Origin: a virus | DNA length: 31,263 bases | IMG/VR virus record: IMGVR_UViG_3300044623_000205 | Span: 1-31,263 of that record | Reading direction: 5' to 3' (one strand) | In this document: positions 2,783-31,057 of the stretch, piece by piece | Layout: each line of letters begins with the position of its first letter | Numbering within the stretch: position 1 is the first letter of the stretch | Made by a program: the position numbers and the translations under genes | Notes under the pieces: model-generated | The model's database searches: none | What the model was told of the DNA's origin: nothing | Seen by the model: the letters and a program-made list of their open reading frames with translations, nothing else

Positions 2783-3031
2783 ATGAAAAAGTTAATAATG
2801 TTAGTGTCAATAGTAGGATTAAGTTACGCATGTAATAAAGACAATCCACAACCGAAGCCACAAGAAAATTGTAATTGTGGTAAAATATTGTCAGACGATG
2901 TAACGGATTACTCTGTAGTGATAAGAAATAGTTGCACGGGTAACAATAAAAAGTTTATACTATATCCTGGTGATTGGGTAACAGCTTATGTAGGAAGTGA
3001 TATGTGTATAGAAGGAGCTAATAAATGGTAA
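2783..3031 (+). CDS. phage-encoded lipoprotein (82 aa)
   Basis: A small predicted lipoprotein. Residues 1-16 form a signal peptide (MKK, then a hydrophobic core) ending in the lipobox LSYAC, with Cys17 as the lipidated residue. The mature part starts CNKDN with a Pro/Gln/Lys linker and then a compact Cys-containing domain (Cys30, Cys32, Cys51, Cys75). It should sit on the inner or outer face of the outer membrane. The Lys-Asp residues after the Cys resemble the surface-export signals described for Bacteroidota lipoproteins, but match is partial. Phage lipoproteins often block superinfection by masking a receptor; that role is inferred. Confidence 0.8.
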   Translation: MKKLIMLVSIVGLSYACNKDNPQPKPQENCNCGKILSDDVTDYSVVIRNSCTGNNKKFILYPGDWVTAYVGSDMCIEGANKW

Positions 3032-3033
3032 TT

Positions 3034-3327
3034 ATGAATAAGAAATTTAAAACACAAGCACGAAAGTTGAAGTTGATTAATAACCAACTACACTACAATA
3101 AGCTAATAGCTGAAACAATGACAATGCAACCGCTATTTTTAGAAAACTTTGAGGAGCTTAATGAAGTATTGCCAGAGTTTTTTACAACTGACTTGCTTAA
3201 AAAGTTAGAGATGTTTAGCAATAGTCTGTATTATAAGCAATCAGATGAAGATTTAGCAGGGGTAGCAGACGAGCAGATACAAAATACAAAGGAACTAAGA
3301 GAGTTTTTTGATAAAAGTTTTGTATAA
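3034..3327 (+). CDS. hypothetical protein (97 aa)
   Basis: A 97-residue protein, helical, with a basic N-terminus and an acidic C-terminal half (ELNEVLPEFF, then DEDLAGVADEQIQ). I chose the ATG at 3034, because it has the usual AATTATG context and does not overlap the lipoprotein gene; an in-frame ATG at 3025 would add three residues. It is the last gene of the left operon and is followed by the hairpin region. Function unknown. Confidence 0.7.
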   Translation: MNKKFKTQARKLKLINNQLHYNKLIAETMTMQPLFLENFEELNEVLPEFFTTDLLKKLEMFSNSLYYKQSDEDLAGVADEQIQNTKELREFFDKSFV

Positions 3328-3332
3328 CGTTG

Positions 3333-3403
3333 TATTAGCGTCTGCGAAGTTGCGCTAATAAAGTGTTATAGTTGCTTAATGCGTATTGTTCGGTTAAGCA
3401 ACT
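3333..3403. repeat. two perfect inverted repeats after the early operon
   Basis: TATTAGCG at 3333-3340 pairs with CGCTAATA at 3353-3360 (8 bp, 12-base loop). AGTTGCTTAA at 3370-3379 pairs with TTAAGCAACT at 3394-3403 (10 bp, 14-base loop). Neither is followed by a T-run, so simple intrinsic terminators are less likely than RNA-processing, protein-binding or replication structures. Confidence 0.75.
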
Positions 3404-3404
3404 G

Positions 3405-3460
3405 AATAGGGGGAGTAAAATAAACGCAATTATTTTGTCTAAACTCCCCTTATTCTATTT
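3405..3460. terminator. long interrupted hairpin, probable bidirectional terminator
   Basis: The 12-base arm 3405-3416 pairs with 3443-3454 (G-rich against C-rich, one G-U wobble). Directly inside, AAAATAA at 3417-3423 pairs with TTATTTT at 3430-3436 over a six-base loop. Together they give about 19 pairs with one internal bulge. The 3' side is followed by a T-rich tract (CTATTTT). It ends the left operon and insulates it from the cassette. Confidence 0.65.
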
Positions 3461-3592: not shown

Positions 3593-3600
3593 TATATTTG
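3593..3600 (+). promoter_or_regulatory. promoter of the accessory cassette (-7 element)
   Basis: TATATTTG is an exact -7 consensus. The -33 position reads TTA rather than TTG. Transcription would start about 3605-3608, just ahead of the first arm of the structured leader at 3610. The same promoter-to-helix distance is found at 4953-4960, which supports the assignment. Confidence 0.65.
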
Positions 3601-3604
3601 CCCC

Positions 3605-3694
3605 GTTACGGTCTCACACCATAGTAACTAAAGGAATTTTAAGCTTTGTAATGATTTAAGACGTGAGACCCTTAATGATTTACAGGGCTTTTTT
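3605..3694 (+). ncRNA. structured leader RNA 1 (interlocked helices plus U-run)
   Basis: Four segments occur in the order a, b, a', b'. GGTCTCAC (3610-3617) pairs perfectly with GTGAGACC (3663-3670). AAGCTTTGTAA (3641-3651), inside that loop, pairs over 11 positions (two G-U) with TTACAGGGCTT (3680-3690), which runs into a T tract. The helices interlock, so they form a pseudoknot or act as alternatives, with b-b' resembling a terminator. Leader 2 (4965-5049) has the same order, near-identical spacings and different helix sequences. The ATG of the 54-residue gene follows 21 bases later, so read-through control is likely. Confidence 0.75.
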
Positions 3695-3711
3695 AATTTA
3701 ATATAAATAAT

Positions 3712-3876
3712 ATGAAAGAGAAAATTTTTTTTTGCAACCTTGAGGTTAAAGATGGTAAAAAAGTAAAACATTTTAAAAACGTAGTAATATCTGAAAATGA
3801 TATTTATTATAAAAAATTTGAAATATTAAAAATAGATTTAATTAAAGAAGTAGGATTTAAAAACAATATAAAATAA
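3712..3876 (+). CDS. small hypothetical protein of the accessory cassette (54 aa)
   Basis: A 54-residue protein, first gene after leader RNA 1. It alternates charged and hydrophobic residues (FFCNLEVKDGKKVKHF, then NVVISEND and YYKKFEILKIDLIKEVGF), suggesting a small beta-rich fold. The gene includes a nine-T run at 3725-3733. It stops five bases before the ThyA-like gene. Composition is more AT-rich than the replication genes, in line with separate acquisition of the cassette. No function can be assigned. Confidence 0.6.
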   Translation: MKEKIFFCNLEVKDGKKVKHFKNVVISENDIYYKKFEILKIDLIKEVGFKNNIK

Positions 3877-3881
3877 TAAAA

Positions 3882-4523
3882 ATGAAAAATAATAATAAGT
3901 ACTACAAGCTATTAAATAAAATAGTAATTAAGGGAAATTTACAAGAGGCAAAAAAAGCTAATAGTATTTTTTTAATAAACCAAACATTAAGCTTTAATGA
4001 AAGCGAAATAAAAAAATTGTTTAATACTCATAAAGTTTCAAAAATAAAACTTGATAAGGAGTTACAACTATACATGGAAGGGGAAACTAATATATTAAAA
4101 TATAATGAAAATGGCATTAATTGGTGGGATTATTGCTCTCCGGAACTATTAAACTCTTACCCTACATATTTTAAAAGTCTTCCGGAGTTATTAAATAAAA
4201 TAAATACATTAAGACCATCAAAAAATTATGTTTTATTTATTGGCGACACGCTAAAGCCCACAAATCAATTGCCATGCCTTAGCCTTATACAATTTCAAAT
4301 TATTGGGGGCAAAATACATTTAACTGTTTACCAACGAAGCGCTGATTGTAATCTTGGGCTGCCTAGTGATATTTATCAAATTTATTTGATTAGTAAGATG
4401 ATAAATTTAAAATTTGGCTCAATTACTTTTTTTATTGGAAACGCTCATATTTATGAAAATAATATAGAGGAAACAAAAAAATTATTAAATAACGAAAATT
4501 ATTCTTTTAAATTAAACGTTTAA
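3882..4523 (+). CDS. thymidylate-synthase-fold protein, putative dCMP/CMP hydroxymethylase-type
   Basis: A 213-residue, short member of the ThyA family (bacterial enzymes have about 264). Visible motifs in order: EL..YMEGETNI..Y..NGI.WWD (residues 60-83); PTYF (94-97), in place of PVYG; LPC with the catalytic Cys132 (the usual following His is Leu); QRSADCNLGLPSDI (151-164); GNAHIYENN (186-194). Arg152, Ser153, Asp155, His189 and Tyr191 match nucleotide-binding residues. The Asn that selects dUMP is Asp163 here. In T4 dCMP hydroxymethylase an Asp at this site favours cytosine nucleotides. The paired Arg of the phosphate site reads Lys-Asn and the C-terminal tail is missing. Substrate is therefore inferred; a non-catalytic relative cannot be excluded. 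Confidence 0.8.
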   Translation: MKNNNKYYKLLNKIVIKGNLQEAKKANSIFLINQTLSFNESEIKKLFNTHKVSKIKLDKELQLYMEGETNILKYNENGINWWDYCSPELLNSYPTYFKSLPELLNKINTLRPSKNYVLFIGDTLKPTNQLPCLSLIQFQIIGGKIHLTVYQRSADCNLGLPSDIYQIYLISKMINLKFGSITFFIGNAHIYENNIEETKKLLNNENYSFKLNV

Positions 4524-4526
4524 ATT

Positions 4527-4946
4527 ATGAGAAATTATATAGCAAAAATAAAAATACCATTTGATAAAGTTAATTTGTCAACGGGTATAATAGGGGAAGA
4601 AATGTTTAAAATATGGTTTGATAATAATTACCATGACGAATATATATTTAAACAAAAAGCAGATAGAGACTACGAAAAAATTGACTTTGCATGTGATAAG
4701 GGGTTTACATACCAAATTAAAACTACTAAAAACAATTCTTATACATTTAATTGTGATTTAGAGGACATTACAGGCCATTTAAAGTCTTCTATATATGTTT
4801 TTATACAATTAATAAATGGCTATGCTTATATTGAAGGATTTTATAATACTGAATATGTATTAAATAATATAAAAAAGTCATTTAGATATAAAAATTCTTT
4901 TATTTGGGCGAAAAACTTATTACAAAAAGAATTAATATTAAAATAA
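4527..4946 (+). CDS. putative PD-(D/E)xK-fold endonuclease
   Basis: A 139-residue protein with the order of a PD-(D/E)xK nuclease core: an N-terminal helix with Glu24 and Glu25 (STGIIGEEMFKIWF), Asp53 in KIDFACD, a strand, then Gln63-Ile-Lys65 followed by two Thr. A Q-x-K final motif replaces E-x-K in several characterised members of this fold. The remainder, with strands rich in Tyr and Ile, would complete the sheet. It starts four bases after the ThyA-like gene, so the two are co-transcribed and may share a role. The family is inferred from motif order only. Confidence 0.6.
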   Translation: MRNYIAKIKIPFDKVNLSTGIIGEEMFKIWFDNNYHDEYIFKQKADRDYEKIDFACDKGFTYQIKTTKNNSYTFNCDLEDITGHLKSSIYVFIQLINGYAYIEGFYNTEYVLNNIKKSFRYKNSFIWAKNLLQKELILK

Positions 4947-4952
4947 ATTTAC

Positions 4953-4960
4953 TATATTTG
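4953..4960 (+). promoter_or_regulatory. promoter of the replication operon (-7 element)
   Basis: TATATTTG, an exact -7 consensus, begins seven bases after the nuclease stop codon. The -33 area reads TTA. Transcription would start around 4965-4968, immediately before the first arm of leader RNA 2. Confidence 0.7.
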
Positions 4961-4964
4961 TACT

Positions 4965-5049
4965 CGAAGCTTGGACACTTCTAAAAATATTTTTATAAAA
5001 GTCATTTATTAAGGGTAAGTCCAAGCACCTTTTTTAAATGGCTTTTTTT
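4965..5049 (+). ncRNA. structured leader RNA 2 (interlocked helices plus U-run)
   Basis: GCTTGGAC (4969-4976) pairs perfectly with GTCCAAGC (5019-5026). AAAAGTCATTTA (4997-5008), inside that loop, pairs over 12 positions (one G-U) with TAAATGGCTTTT (5035-5046), which leads into seven T. Gaps a-b, b-a' and a'-b' are 20, 10 and 8 bases, against 23, 11 and 9 in leader 1. CTAAA and TTTT recur between a and b, and TTAAG between b and a'. The replication gene starts 16 bases after b'. Confidence 0.75.
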
Positions 5050-5062
5050 ATTTAATTTTATT

Positions 5063-5770
5063 ATGGCAGAAAACAAAACATCTTTTATTCTTTACTCCGA
5101 TCAGCGTTCTTTAATTAATTTGCTATCGGACGAACAGGCAGGCGTTCTTTTAAAACATATATTTGCATACGTTAATGATGAAAACCCAATTAATACAGAC
5201 CAATTAATAAATGTTGTTTTTGAGCCTATAAAACAGCAGTTTAAAAGAGATTTAATTAAGTGGGAGCGAACAAAAGAAGGACGAAGTGCAGCAGGGAAAG
5301 CGAGCGCAGAAGCTAGGAGAATTAACAAAGCTCAACAAACTTCAACAAATGTTAACAAAGCTCAACAAACTTCAACAAATCCAACTGTAAATGATAATGT
5401 TAATGTTAATGTTAATGTAAATGATATAAAATATAATAGTGCCGAGTCTATTGACTTCGGAGTATTACTAAATTATATTAATTCGTCATTTGATAGAAAG
5501 TTTAAAATAATATCTGAAAGTGTAAAAACAAAATTTAAAGCAAGGATGAAAGAAAAGTATACAAAAGATGATATTAAAAACTGTATAGACAATTTAAAAA
5601 ACATTCAATACCATATTGACAATGGATTTCAATATTGTACTCCCGAGTTTATTTCAAGGGCTGATACTTTAGATAAATATTCTGTAAAAACCGCGGAGGT
5701 AAAGGTAAGCGGTGATGATGAATACTACAATAACGTAATGAAACAAGTAAACGCAAATAAATTATTATGA
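5063..5770 (+). CDS. replication-associated protein (DUF6291-like N-terminus)
   Basis: A 235-residue protein. Residues 5-65 (FILYSDQRSLINLLSDEQAG..LKHIFAYVNDENP) match the pattern I associate with DUF6291-type phage replication proteins. A basic segment with GRSAAGKASAEARR (about 73-86) follows, then a low-complexity linker with NKAQQTSTN repeated twice and an Asn-Val tract. The C-terminal half (about 125-235) is a helical domain like those in primosome or DnaD-type proteins. It is the first gene behind leader RNA 2 and overlaps the helicase gene by four bases. It probably recognises the origin or loads the helicase; this is inference from family and place. Confidence 0.75.
   Translation: MAENKTSFILYSDQRSLINLLSDEQAGVLLKHIFAYVNDENPINTDQLINVVFEPIKQQFKRDLIKWERTKEGRSAAGKASAEARRINKAQQTSTNVNKAQQTSTNPTVNDNVNVNVNVNDIKYNSAESIDFGVLLNYINSSFDRKFKIISESVKTKFKARMKEKYTKDDIKNCIDNLKNIQYHIDNGFQYCTPEFISRADTLDKYSVKTAEVKVSGDDEYYNNVMKQVNANKLL
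5322..5380 (+). repeat. tandem 29-base repeat inside the replication gene
   Basis: A 29-base unit starting TTAACAAAGCTCAACAAACT occurs at 5322-5350 and again at 5352-5380 without visible change, with a period of 30 bases, so it stays in frame. Each unit has internal CAACAAA-type near-repeats. An AT-rich run of AATGTT units follows to about 5425. The arrangement resembles iterons beside an unwinding element. Confidence 0.8.
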
Positions 5771-6660
5771 TACTACAAGCAGGACATAGTACAGATTATC
5801 TACATGACTACATGAATGGTAAAATACCTTTTGGCTTAGGCATAGGATGTTATTTAGATGACCATTTAAAATGGAAAACAGGACAACTTAATATTATTCT
5901 AGGTCATGACAACGTCGGTAAAACATATTTTATAGAATGGTATTTTTTAGCGTTAGCAACTCAACACAACCTGACATTTACTTTATTTATGGATGAAAAC
6001 TATCAAGGAAAGGTCATGCGAGATTTAATACAGATGTACATGGGTAAACCTTTTAAGGATTTAACCCCTACAGAATTACGAAAAGGAATTATTAAAATGG
6101 AGCATTATTTTAAATTTGTAGATAATCAAAAAAGATATACTCCAGATGAATTATTAAATATTTTTGCTAATTCTAATACTGATAATTATTTAATTGACCC
6201 TTTCAATGGATTAAAAACAGCTATGAGCTACAGTAGCAACTACGATGTATTAAACGAATTAAAACACTTTACTAAAAACGGTAAGACAATCTACGTAAAT
6301 ACACACCCAAGTTCAGCAAGTGGTAGGCGTTCTGCCGTATATCCTGAAAAGCATCATTGGGCAGGTCATGTAATGGCTCCATTAAAAAGTGATATTGAAG
6401 GAGGTAAAGCATTTGCGAATAAAGCTGATGACTTTCTAGTAATACACAGAATGACTCAACACCCAACGATGTGGAATCAAACAATGTGTGAAGTAGTAAA
6501 AGTTAAGGACACCGATACAGGGGGCATGCCTACAAAATTAAATAGTCCAGTACTTTTAGATTATAATCATGGCCTAGGATTTAAAGCTGGAGGTATAGAT
6601 TGCATAAAACGAATTAAAGAAGCACAAGCAAGTATTTTAAAACCTAATTTTGGATTTTAA
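5767..6660 (+). CDS. RecA-fold replicative helicase / ATPase
   Basis: A 297-residue ATPase of the DnaB/Twinkle-like RecA fold, expected to unwind DNA at the phage fork. Walker A is GHDNVGKT (residues 46-53), Walker B ends in LIDPFNG with Asp144, and VNTHPSS (177-183) is the family's sensor strand. Residues 207-228 (KSDIEGGKAFANKADDFLVIHR) match the GG.AF.NKAD..I..HR segment found in these helicases. There is no primase domain and no long N-terminal domain, so it is a compact form. It overlaps the replication protein gene by four bases and the next gene by one. Confidence 0.85.
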   Translation: MILQAGHSTDYLHDYMNGKIPFGLGIGCYLDDHLKWKTGQLNIILGHDNVGKTYFIEWYFLALATQHNLTFTLFMDENYQGKVMRDLIQMYMGKPFKDLTPTELRKGIIKMEHYFKFVDNQKRYTPDELLNIFANSNTDNYLIDPFNGLKTAMSYSSNYDVLNELKHFTKNGKTIYVNTHPSSASGRRSAVYPEKHHWAGHVMAPLKSDIEGGKAFANKADDFLVIHRMTQHPTMWNQTMCEVVKVKDTDTGGMPTKLNSPVLLDYNHGLGFKAGGIDCIKRIKEAQASILKPNFGF

Positions 6661-9563: not shown

Positions 9564-10097
9564 ATGAGTAATAAATTAATGATAGAGCTATCAAAGTATC
9601 ACTCCGAGTGGTGTAAGATTGTACGGTCATTTGGTGTAAGCTCCGATACTTGCGAAGACGTAGTTCAGGATATGTATTTAAGACTAAACAAATTGTCATC
9701 CTACGAAAAGCTATTTAAAAACGGTGTGATATCAAAGTCTTATGTTTGGATTACTTTACGAAATTTGCAGTTTCAACAATTTAAACAGGACAACTTAACG
9801 ATTTCACTAAGCAACTATGATATACAAATAAATGAAAATTGTACCTTAGATGAGGTTAAAGCGCGTTCTAATTTCAACGTAAAGATTAACAAAGAAGTAG
9901 TCAAGTGGAATATGTACGACCAACTACTATTTTCTATCTACATGAACGATTCAATTTCAATGCGTGATATTTCAAAAGGTAGCGGAATAACTTTGAGGAG
10001 TATACAAAGGACGTTAGAGAATTGCTATCGTAGGTTAAGGCAAAATGTAGGTGAAGACTATCAAGATTTAATAAACAAAGATTACGAACTAATATAA
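9564..10097 (+). CDS. sigma-70-family (ECF-like) RNA polymerase sigma factor
   Basis: A 177-residue sigma factor with region 2 (about residues 5-75, including CEDVVQDMYLRL and the aromatic VWITLRNLQFQQF) and region 4 (about 115-160), where ISMRDISKGSGITLRSIQRTLENCYRRLRQ forms the helix-turn-helix. I start at the ATG at 9564 rather than the in-frame TTG at 9561. It has a good host-type promoter and sits before the terminase and morphogenesis genes. It therefore probably switches polymerase to the late genes, where GGTTACAA elements recur upstream of starts (12315, 21233, 23891). Pairing of factor and motif is inferred. Confidence 0.85.
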   Translation: MSNKLMIELSKYHSEWCKIVRSFGVSSDTCEDVVQDMYLRLNKLSSYEKLFKNGVISKSYVWITLRNLQFQQFKQDNLTISLSNYDIQINENCTLDEVKARSNFNVKINKEVVKWNMYDQLLFSIYMNDSISMRDISKGSGITLRSIQRTLENCYRRLRQNVGEDYQDLINKDYELI

Positions 10098-29901: not shown

Positions 29902-30057
29902 ATGAAAGCAACACAAAACAAATTAGAAAACATTTACATCGCACCCCCTTTAGGAATCTGTATTAAATGGTGGAAATCAAAAGGACAAGCAGAAGCTACA
30001 ACGGGAAGCTTCAATTATGAATTATATTTACAGTATTTAAAAGCAATAAACAAATAA
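29902..30057 (+). CDS. small hypothetical early protein (51 aa)
   Basis: A complete 51-residue copy of the gene truncated at window position 1. It starts in an AAATTATG context 34 bases behind the predicted transcription start of the early promoter. The protein has a short N-terminal helix (MKATQNKLENIYIAPPLG), a Lys-Trp-rich centre (IKWWKSKGQ) and a Tyr-rich tail. First gene of the early operon; function unknown. Confidence 0.75.
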   Translation: MKATQNKLENIYIAPPLGICIKWWKSKGQAEATTGSFNYELYLQYLKAINK

Positions 30058-30060
30058 ATT

Positions 30061-30330
30061 ATGAAAAACACAATTAAAACACTAGAAGAGTGCATAGCGG
30101 ATTTAAAGAAATTAATTCCTAGTCATGCAAAAACAACATTTATCAATTATAAAGATATTGATTTAGAAGTAGAATTTCAAGATAGCTACGACAATAGATT
30201 CCCTGAAGACGGTCAATATGTTTATGTATTAAGGGTGTACGTTGCTGGCGTAGATATTACAGAATTATTCGAGCAGGAATGGATGCAAAATGAATTAGTA
30301 GAAATTTACCTTAAAAACCAAGAGTTATGA
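30061..30330 (+). CDS. conserved hypothetical early protein (89 aa), second copy
   Basis: This copy differs from 90-359 at six of 270 bases, and only one change alters the protein (Lys instead of Arg at residue 2). Its start context, overlap with the ERF gene by four bases, and acidic, Tyr/Val-rich sequence are as in the first copy. The silent bias shows that both versions come from functional genomes. Confidence 0.85.
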   Translation: MKNTIKTLEECIADLKKLIPSHAKTTFINYKDIDLEVEFQDSYDNRFPEDGQYVYVLRVYVAGVDITELFEQEWMQNELVEIYLKNQEL

Positions 30331-30839
30331 AATTATTCGCAAAAATACACGCAGCCAAACAAGAGATAGGAGTAGTTAAGAAAAATGCTAAGAATCCACA
30401 TTTTAAAAACACATACGCAGATTTAAACGCTTTAATTGATGCAGTTGAGCCGATACTATTAGAAAAGGGTTTAATACTCTTACAACCGATAAAAGATGGT
30501 AAAGTCTTCACGCAGATAATAGACATTGATAACGGAGAAATGATTGAGAGTAATATTGAACTAACTCCAAACTTAACTGCGCAGGCTCTCGGGTCTCAAA
30601 TAACGTACTATCGCAGGTACCAAATTTCGGCGATTTTATCGTTACAAGCTGATGATGATGACGGACAAAAAGCCAGTGCGCCACAAGCAATTACGAAACC
30701 TATTTGTTCTGTAGTATTATTTGAGAAAGCAGTTAATAGATACGAAGGATTAGAGTTAGACGTGTTCGACAAGCTTGAAACAGCATACACATTAACAGCA
30801 CAACAACAATTAGTAATTAACGGAATAACTAAAAGATGA
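30327..30839 (+). CDS. erf: ERF-family single-strand annealing protein, diverged second copy
   Basis: Same length (170 residues) as the copy at 356-868 and the same ERF signature ALGSQITYYRRY followed by DDDDGQ. Residues about 65-107 are strongly diverged: VIDTETFEMVESSIDLT becomes IIDIDNGEMIESNIELT, and TLQSLMSLQS becomes QISAILSLQA. The N-terminal 45 residues and the C-terminal half are nearly identical. The pattern suggests allele exchange of the central segment. Both versions retain all family motifs, so both should be active. Confidence 0.9.
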   Translation: MKLFAKIHAAKQEIGVVKKNAKNPHFKNTYADLNALIDAVEPILLEKGLILLQPIKDGKVFTQIIDIDNGEMIESNIELTPNLTAQALGSQITYYRRYQISAILSLQADDDDGQKASAPQAITKPICSVVLFEKAVNRYEGLELDVFDKLETAYTLTAQQQLVINGITKR

Positions 30840-31057
30840 GTATAGCAGGAAGAGAATTTCTACACTTCAGAATGGAAGAGGAACAATATAGACAACTAGA
30901 AGACGAGCAAAGAAACGCTTTAAATATCTACAAAGTTGAAGTAGATGGTATAGATTACTCAAGCGATGAGATTTGGGCTGCATTAAAAAAGAAGTCAACA
31001 AAGGCATACATTGACCTAAAAAATAGAGAATACGACCTAAGACACGATGTAAGATGA
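30836..31057 (+). CDS. small hypothetical protein (73 aa), second copy
   Basis: Encodes the same charged 73-residue protein as 865-1086 except for residues 3-4 (Ile-Ala for Ala-Val); the other nucleotide differences are silent. It overlaps erf and the following membrane peptide by four bases each, as in the first copy. Function unknown. Confidence 0.8.
   Translation: MSIAGREFLHFRMEEEQYRQLEDEQRNALNIYKVEVDGIDYSSDEIWAALKKKSTKAYIDLKNREYDLRHDVR

Follow-up and report, generated by a model that had tools for sequence, protein, structure and literature searches.

Riboswitches and attenuators join one conserved core to a transcriptional or a translational output. In the plasmid systems ColE1 (RNAI/RNAII) and pT181/pIP501 (rep attenuation), loop-loop pairing limits a replication factor, by way of a terminator in pT181 and pIP501. 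In the immunity of satellite phage P4, control is exerted in the leader of replication genes, where the CI RNA, through seqB, pairs with seqA upstream and seqC downstream, which leads to premature termination (PMC4825925). The putRNAs of HK022, of approximately 70 nucleotides (nt) with two stem-loops, are found downstream of early promoters (PMC9378689). The present work concerns two leader RNAs, at 3605-3694 and 4965-5049, in a viral DNA of 31,263 nt (IMG/VR record IMGVR_UViG_3300044623_000205, positions 1 to 31,263; the whole stretch is hereafter the window), and the phage RNA family to which they belong. It is reasonably probable that these 5' leaders are cis-acting switches that are based on kissing loops and have interchangeable output modules.

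A first-pass annotation of the window had described, after TATATTTG, segments in the order a-b-a'-b' with a T-run, in which a pairs with a' (helix a, 8 base pairs, bp) and b with b' (helix b, 11 or 12 bp). Direct reading finds these segments and T-runs at the positions claimed, with helices of those lengths. It had also taken them for a class of cis-regulatory RNA, and homologues do exist in number. The family is previously undescribed, is of the phage leader RNA switch type and is a member of no named family. In Rfam 15, the comparison that the annotation had called for, the window has no match at gathering score, and 17 related loci searched at E up to 5 or 10 gave three weak matches only, far below gathering scores; C4 (RF01695), which would mark homology to the CI/c4 antisense RNA of P4, was not matched in these searches. 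When phage records were searched with the nucleotide sequences of the leaders, no full-length match appeared, as expected given that the helix sequences change freely.

Detection and fold of the leader RNAs

The family was first detected with a scan for the a-b-a'-b' order anchored on TAnnTTTG promoter sites. The loci were collected by similarity to the DUF6291 protein, then by a helicase search together with isolated phages, and then by further protein-based searches, and the score thresholds were set by the analysis itself. Among 3636 promoter sites, 61 distinct segments score at least 42, versus 2 in dinucleotide shuffles, which disposes of the concern that shuffled sequence would pair equally often. 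Unanchored dinucleotide-shuffled windows give 1-2 matches per 62 kb at a score of at least 37. Given that these occasional chance matches are of equal size, the two-helix pattern, real as it is, is by itself suggestive and not decisive; the decisive evidence is the promoter anchoring together with extra stems and the homologues, which retain both helices.

These extra stems, P1 and P3, played no part in the first scan and are additions to the original description. Hairpin 1, closed by P1, bears a in its loop, while hairpin 2, made of P2 (b/b'), an internal loop and P3, bears a'; a and a' are placed in two hairpin loops. In leader 1, the recurring string TTAAG pointed out in the annotation forms one side of P3. 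Two hairpins with complementary loops have the structure of a kissing-loop complex. The interlocked and terminator-like topology proposed earlier is borne out, but the choice it implied between helix a and a terminator has to be corrected, since the loops kiss and helices a and b are compatible. Of the clusters, 60% show P1 at its threshold, compared with 7% once shuffled; for P3 the values are 61% and 9%.

A scan with the full model, in which neither promoter nor T-run was required, gave 81 matches scoring at least 60 in 4.1 Mb, versus 1 in 2.0 Mb after shuffling. In 72 of 82 full-model matches, P1 is preceded by TAnnTTTG or a near variant of it, mostly 2-10 nt 5' of P1 and most often at a spacing of 4-6 nt; the 10 matches that lack it are likely false positives. 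The start codon (ATG), which the scan did not require either, lies 9-30 nt past P2 in nearly all matches. The element is placed between promoter and start codon, the position of a cis-regulatory leader (attenuator). Both scanners accept G-U pairs but only perfect helices and, therefore, divergent variants are missed.

Applied to 25 aligned members, RNAalifold recovers the stems P1, P2 and P3 without guidance, and 14 of 17 pairs show compensatory changes on both sides, in agreement with the changes that the annotation had anticipated in homologues. In minimum-energy folds of single leaders the outer stems are formed and the two complementary loops are largely single-stranded; in that of leader 1, P1 is formed and most of a is unpaired, with a 3-bp extension drawn inside. 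That the leaders form an RNA structure is, from these comparisons, almost certain. Chance inverted repeats in AT-rich DNA are ruled out by the shuffles and by the independent enrichment of P1 and P3. A DNA-level structure such as an origin is disfavoured, given that P2 accepts many G-U but no A-C at the same pairs, as expected for RNA of the coding strand, although the training members had been found with G-U allowed. A conserved antiterminator pairing of loop 1 (ATTATA) with b fits some members by eye and fails others, and was dropped.

The internal loop between P2 and P3 recurs in two types, UGAA/GGAU (about 40 of 116 elements) and AGUA/GAA, which resembles loop E (about 21 of 116); these may be sites of protein or tertiary contact, and the linker is A-rich. 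Both the loop types and the linker would suit an element that is the binding site of a regulator, be it a small molecule or a protein of the host or the phage, in which the kissing loops serve as scaffold only. This explanation is unlikely, given that about half of the non-redundant elements show neither loop type by the pattern used here, and that outside the helices no nucleotide is conserved family-wide, unlike in ligand-binding riboswitches.

Kissing helix, gene context and carriers

The kissing helix was tested INDEPENDENTLY with a covariance model, R1, built from the 25-member alignment with P1, P2 and P3 only, the kissing helix being left out. R1, trained mainly on type A, gave 57 matches in 94 sources, some of them outside the training set; leader 1 scores 79 bits at 3602-3696, the window being itself part of that set. 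The loops of the same element are complementary, at a score of at least 18, in 79% of 48 distinct R1 matches, whereas loop 1 of one element is complementary to loop 3 of another in 4% at the same threshold.

The kissing sequences a/a' are the most variable paired part of the element and change much faster than the rest. Indeed, about 150 distinct elements carry 88 kissing sequences, and a constant P2 may be joined to up to four different kissing pairs, each internally complementary, as in the P2 that carries GGGGATG, GTCGAAG, GTGGAAG and GTGGACG, every one fully complementary between a and a'. In orthologues of leader 2, the b core AAAGTCATTTA/TAAATGGCTTT is identical to that of the window, while helix a is GCTCGAC/GTCGAGC in L001-L003, GCTGGAC/GTCCAGC in L004 and GCGTCGGA/TCCGACGC in L012. 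The window has GCTTGGAC/GTCCAAGC, both sides being changed jointly with respect to the orthologues, length included. This covariation is unbiased because the loci were chosen by protein homology and not by RNA. More than one copy, each with its own kissing sequence, is present in several phages.

Elements mostly precede replication initiators. Among viral DUF6291 loci with enough upstream DNA, the element ends within 120 nt of the gene in 30 of 78 and is found anywhere in the locus in 43 of 78. The connection with DUF6291 drawn in the annotation is real but not restricted to this family: the downstream genes encode DUF6291 proteins (PF19808), DnaD-like helicase loaders, primosomal-type proteins, an N6/N4 DNA methylase, NUMOD4/HNH endonucleases, a DEAD/SNF2-type helicase and a metal-dependent hydrolase. 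In DUF6291 loci from bacterial genome assemblies the element occurs in 3 of 22, one of them a P1-less Pedobacter variant.

Members are found in environmental contigs and in the isolated phages Olleya phage Harreka_1, Polaribacter phage Freya_1, Flavobacterium phage 11b, Muminvirus tooticki and Cellulophaga phage phi19:3. A host origin was considered and rejected: R1, mainly type A and run with filters that score few candidates per genome, gave no match in 249 Flavobacterium genomes and a single match in 199 Flavobacteriaceae genomes, and the positive control was recovered under stricter filters (43-genome run). Given that the host genomes are nearly empty of matches and that the lone match precedes a gene resembling a phage replication gene, the family looks phage-borne.

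Other structured leaders were seen in related loci. Upstream of DUF6291 in L106 (6810-6998), L115 and L122, a different, larger and more G+C-rich leader follows TATATTTG, with a hairpin AACGCT..AGCGTT, the loop of which (AGGCAA) matches a downstream TTGCCT; this leader is perhaps another solution to the same task. In L123 (upstream of DUF6291, 9812-10000), L329, L330 and L357, a 5' segment is complementary to the loop of a later hairpin, in differing layouts. The P1-less variant L057 (9868-10000, Pedobacter sp. Leaf170 contig) has a 5' AAGATTGACA whose complement, TGTCAATCTT, lies in the loop of a hairpin with a perfect 18-bp stem; a T-run follows this hairpin, directly before DUF6291.

Probable output modules and the two leaders of the window

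In 72 elements lined up at the final G/C of P2, the last three P2 positions are 75, 88 and 100% GC, the next six are 76-94% T, and T then falls to 47%. The signal is blurred when the alignment is made on ATG, and the scan behind these statistics made no demand for a U-tract. A GC base followed by a U-tract is the signature of a predicted intrinsic (Rho-independent) terminator, and here this signature goes with the hairpin. In most members the hairpin stands 10-30 nt ahead of the start codon.

About one element in three has a poor U-tract. A subset of these has a second copy of a, named a'', at the start-codon region: GTTGCAGTATG in L150, GGTACAGTAATG in L128, AGTGCAGTACTATG in L092, GTGCAGTTATTATG in L081, GGGCAGTATG in L165, ACAACCATG in L169, ACACGACCGATG in L167 and ATACGCAACCAATG in L173, with further triples in L254, L320, L331 and L424. 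Among 116 non-redundant elements, a'' is present in 8 of 45 that are U-tract-poor and in 1 of 71 that are U-tract-rich (Fisher p 0.002), against a chance level of 0.17% from mixed pairs; in a stricter earlier set the counts were 9/38 and 0/57 (p 1.4e-4). The calculated duplex energies of a:a' (-6 to -16 kcal/mol) and a':a'' (-7 to -15.5 kcal/mol) are similar. It is quite likely that the output of the elements is through a terminator or the start site, and the swap of a terminator for a start-codon copy of a points to a real switch and not a static structure. The two mutually exclusive states of an attenuator are visible, as alternative pairing of a' with a or a'', in a minority of elements; both leaders of the window belong to the terminator class, in which no exclusive alternative pairing was seen.

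In four start-site variants that lead DnaD-like genes (L169, L180, L167 and L173), an ATG also follows the upstream a, and an open frame crosses the leader, which points to a possible decoy start or leader peptide. As a general explanation, a leader peptide was rejected, since outside the open frames of these DnaD-like variants the leaders hold no conserved open reading frame (ORF).

The coupling of the U-tract to P2 and the copies of a at the start codon are left unexplained, as is the fact that a/a' is the most variable paired part, if the element is a constitutive, cap-like 5' structure that protects the mRNA of the phage against degradation and holds the start region open with no switching. 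The compact fold, independent of gene identity, and the position of P1, which at 4-6 nt past the promoter element should lie at or beside the 5' end, would suit such a role, which is on balance improbable. A put-like element, in which a two-hairpin 5' RNA binds RNA polymerase and makes it ignore downstream pauses and terminators, would share the place just past phage promoters, the length of approximately 70-90 nt, the two hairpins and the presence of more than one copy per phage. Nonetheless, putRNA is described as V-shaped, with two stem-loops and a triplex, and kissing loops are unmentioned (PMC9378689); hairpin 2 here has its own U-tract, and the start-site class acts at a step that put does not use, which leaves this explanation very unlikely. 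Equally improbable is that the main product is a trans-acting small RNA (sRNA) ending at the U-tract, the downstream gene being read only incidentally: the element has its own promoter and terminator, and for a leader sRNA with additional readthrough into mRNA there is a precedent in IsrK of Gifsy-1 (PMC4825925), but the gene starts 9-30 nt past P2 in nearly every element, far nearer than a free-standing sRNA needs, and the kissing sequences differ between copies in one phage with no other full match in the window.

In the window, 71 TAnnTTTG sites are found on both strands, and a strong a-b-a'-b' arrangement with T-run is found only at the two leaders, whose anchored scores are 45.5 and 43.0, the next best site reaching 32. 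The class is, as had been claimed, used twice, once before an accessory cassette and once before a replication operon; the coordinates are collected in Table 1.

Table 1. Coordinates of the two leaders and of the genes that follow them in the window (aa, amino acids)
Feature	Position	Strand	Sequence or description	Basis
Leader 1 promoter element	3593-3600	+	TATATTTG, Bacteroidota-type -7	sequence
Leader 1 hairpin 1	3605-3628	+	P1 GTTAC/GTAAC (3605-3609/3624-3628), loop GGTCTCACACCATA	single-strand fold
Leader 1 kissing strand a	3610-3617	+	GGTCTCAC	sequence
Leader 1 hairpin 2	3641-3690	+	P2 AAGCTTTGTAA/TTACAGGGCTT, internal loop TGAT/TGAT, P3 TTAAG/CTTAA	
Leader 1 b	3641-3651	+	AAGCTTTGTAA	
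Leader 1 P3 strands	3656-3660/3671-3675	+	TTAAG/CTTAA	
Leader 1 a'	3663-3670	+	GTGAGACC, in hairpin 2 loop	
Leader 1 b'	3680-3690	+	TTACAGGGCTT	
Leader 1 U-tract	3689-3694	+	of the intrinsic-terminator-like hairpin 2	sequence
First ORF of accessory cassette	3712-3876	+	54 aa, no family; 21 nt past leader 1 P2	
ThyA-like ORF	3882-4523	+	next in leader 1 cassette	
Unclassified ORF	4527-4946	+	139 aa, next in leader 1 cassette	
Leader 2 promoter element	4953-4960	+	TATATTTG	sequence
Leader 2 hairpin 1	4966-4981	+	P1 GAAG/CTTC (4966-4969/4978-4981), loop CTTGGACA	
Leader 2 kissing strand a	4969-4976	+	GCTTGGAC	sequence
Leader 2 hairpin 2	4997-5046	+	P2 AAAAGTCATTTA/TAAATGGCTTTT, P3 AAGGGT/ACCTTT	
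Leader 2 b	4997-5008	+	AAAAGTCATTTA	
Leader 2 P3 strands	5011-5016/5027-5032	+	AAGGGT/ACCTTT	
Leader 2 a'	5019-5026	+	GTCCAAGC, in hairpin 2 loop	
Leader 2 b'	5035-5046	+	TAAATGGCTTTT	
Leader 2 U-tract	5043-5049	+		sequence
DUF6291 protein gene	5063-5770	+	after leader 2; PF19808, E 3e-22	
Helicase-like ATPase gene	5767-6660	+	after DUF6291 gene	

The DUF6291 protein also matches primosomal and replication-initiator-like PHROGs. In the accessory cassette, the thymidylate-synthase-like protein is short (213 aa; PF00303, E 1e-23) and is possibly a nucleotide-modifying enzyme.

Elsewhere in the window, the gap past the ORF at 3025-3327 holds three hairpins (3330-3460), TATTAGCG/CGCTAATA, GTTGCTTAA/TTAAGCAAC and GAATAGGGGGAGT/ACTCCCCTTATTC, followed by TATTTT, which are read as an operon-end terminator region; hairpins 2 and 3 also score as an a-b-a'-b' arrangement, but no gene lies downstream. 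The ends of the record (1-1086 and 29971-31057) repeat each other with 92-98% identity at a spacing of 29970-29971, which is read as a circularly permuted phage genome of approximately 29.97 kb assembled beyond its end, the differences between the repeat copies being strain variation. No tRNA-like sequence or tmRNA was found in the window.

Proposed switch and comparison with known systems

Comparison among members of the family supports the predicted fold, its conservation and placement, the U-tract and, for a minority, the start-site alternative. Regulated switching is favoured with moderate confidence, and the release and capture of a', their sign and their trigger are what we infer. Transcription would begin at or beside P1. 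By the predicted fold, the loop of hairpin 1 exposes a and the loop of hairpin 2 (P2/P3) the complementary a'; the regulated variable would be whether a holds a'. The a:a' kiss, being the first pairing possible during transcription, would give the expressed state. In the start-site class, kissing would leave a'' and the start codon free (ON), while in the terminator class it would, by analogy and if the sign is the same, disfavour termination by hindering the completion of P2. Removal of a would let a' bind the start site, or let the terminator hairpin be completed, and expression would drop. Of the two copies in the window, one would control expression of the ThyA-like cassette, the other that of the DUF6291/helicase replication operon.

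A possible, though doubtful, trigger is a second, short leader RNA copy from other phage genomes in the same cell, with the result that the dose of the replication gene would be controlled specifically for each kissing sequence; such a trigger in trans would account for the much more rapid change of a/a' than of the other parts. In a still more tentative extension, the kissing sequence would be a specificity code, by which the leader RNA of a resident phage pairs through a/a' with the leader of incoming genomes and shuts their replication operon. This speculative reading, rather unlikely but in line with the rapid change of a/a' on a constant background and with the differing sequences within one phage, would mean that flavobacterial phages control their replication dose and resist superinfection by a sequence code that needs no protein, with a function parallel to that of P4 immunity but an independent construction. 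If the kissing sequence does code immunity, related phages could be sorted into groups by 8 nucleotides.

Several observations weigh against a kissing-loop switch as proposed. The a:a' kiss is geometrically compatible with P2 and, therefore, could equally strengthen termination in the terminator class. There are only about a dozen independent start-site triples, and L362 has both outputs. The window has no further full 8-nt copy of either kissing sequence (a or a'), and neither a partner protein nor a trans RNA has been identified. No element is detectable in 35 of 78 viral DUF6291 loci, some of which are missed variants. In L287, L292, L293 and L295, relatives of element-bearing genes have a promoter and a plain short A-rich leader, so that gain or loss of the element is possible.

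The open-licence literature has little on regulatory RNAs of Bacteroidota phages, and among open-licence papers none was found on DUF6291 or on such a leader in these phages. The family is compact, recurrent, absent from Rfam and strongly covarying, and it precedes replication initiators of several unrelated families. The putL and putR elements of HK022 resemble it as two-hairpin RNAs of similar size, just past phage promoters and more than one per genome (PMC9378689). Put binds RNA polymerase next to the zinc-binding domain of beta' and suppresses termination. The comparison made here is by size and position, and the put elements differ in that no kissing loops, terminator U-tract or start-site copy are described for them. 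With riboswitches and attenuators the family shares a platform in which one core is combined with a terminator or with start-site sequestration, but the core is here a variable, self-matched kissing helix and not a conserved ligand-binding one. Plasmid kissing-loop control employs a separate antisense RNA, whereas here both loops are in one leader RNA. The nearest described system in function is P4 immunity, although homology is unsupported by any sequence or Rfam match. As in P4 immunity, to which the IsrK RNA of Gifsy-1 is related, one segment is complementary to upstream and downstream copies, and the order a-a'-a'' matches. Here, however, two neighbouring hairpin loops hold the segments within approximately 90 nt, hairpin 2 is itself the predicted intrinsic-terminator hairpin, and there are several independent copies per phage; a trans-acting RNA like that of P4 is here hypothetical.
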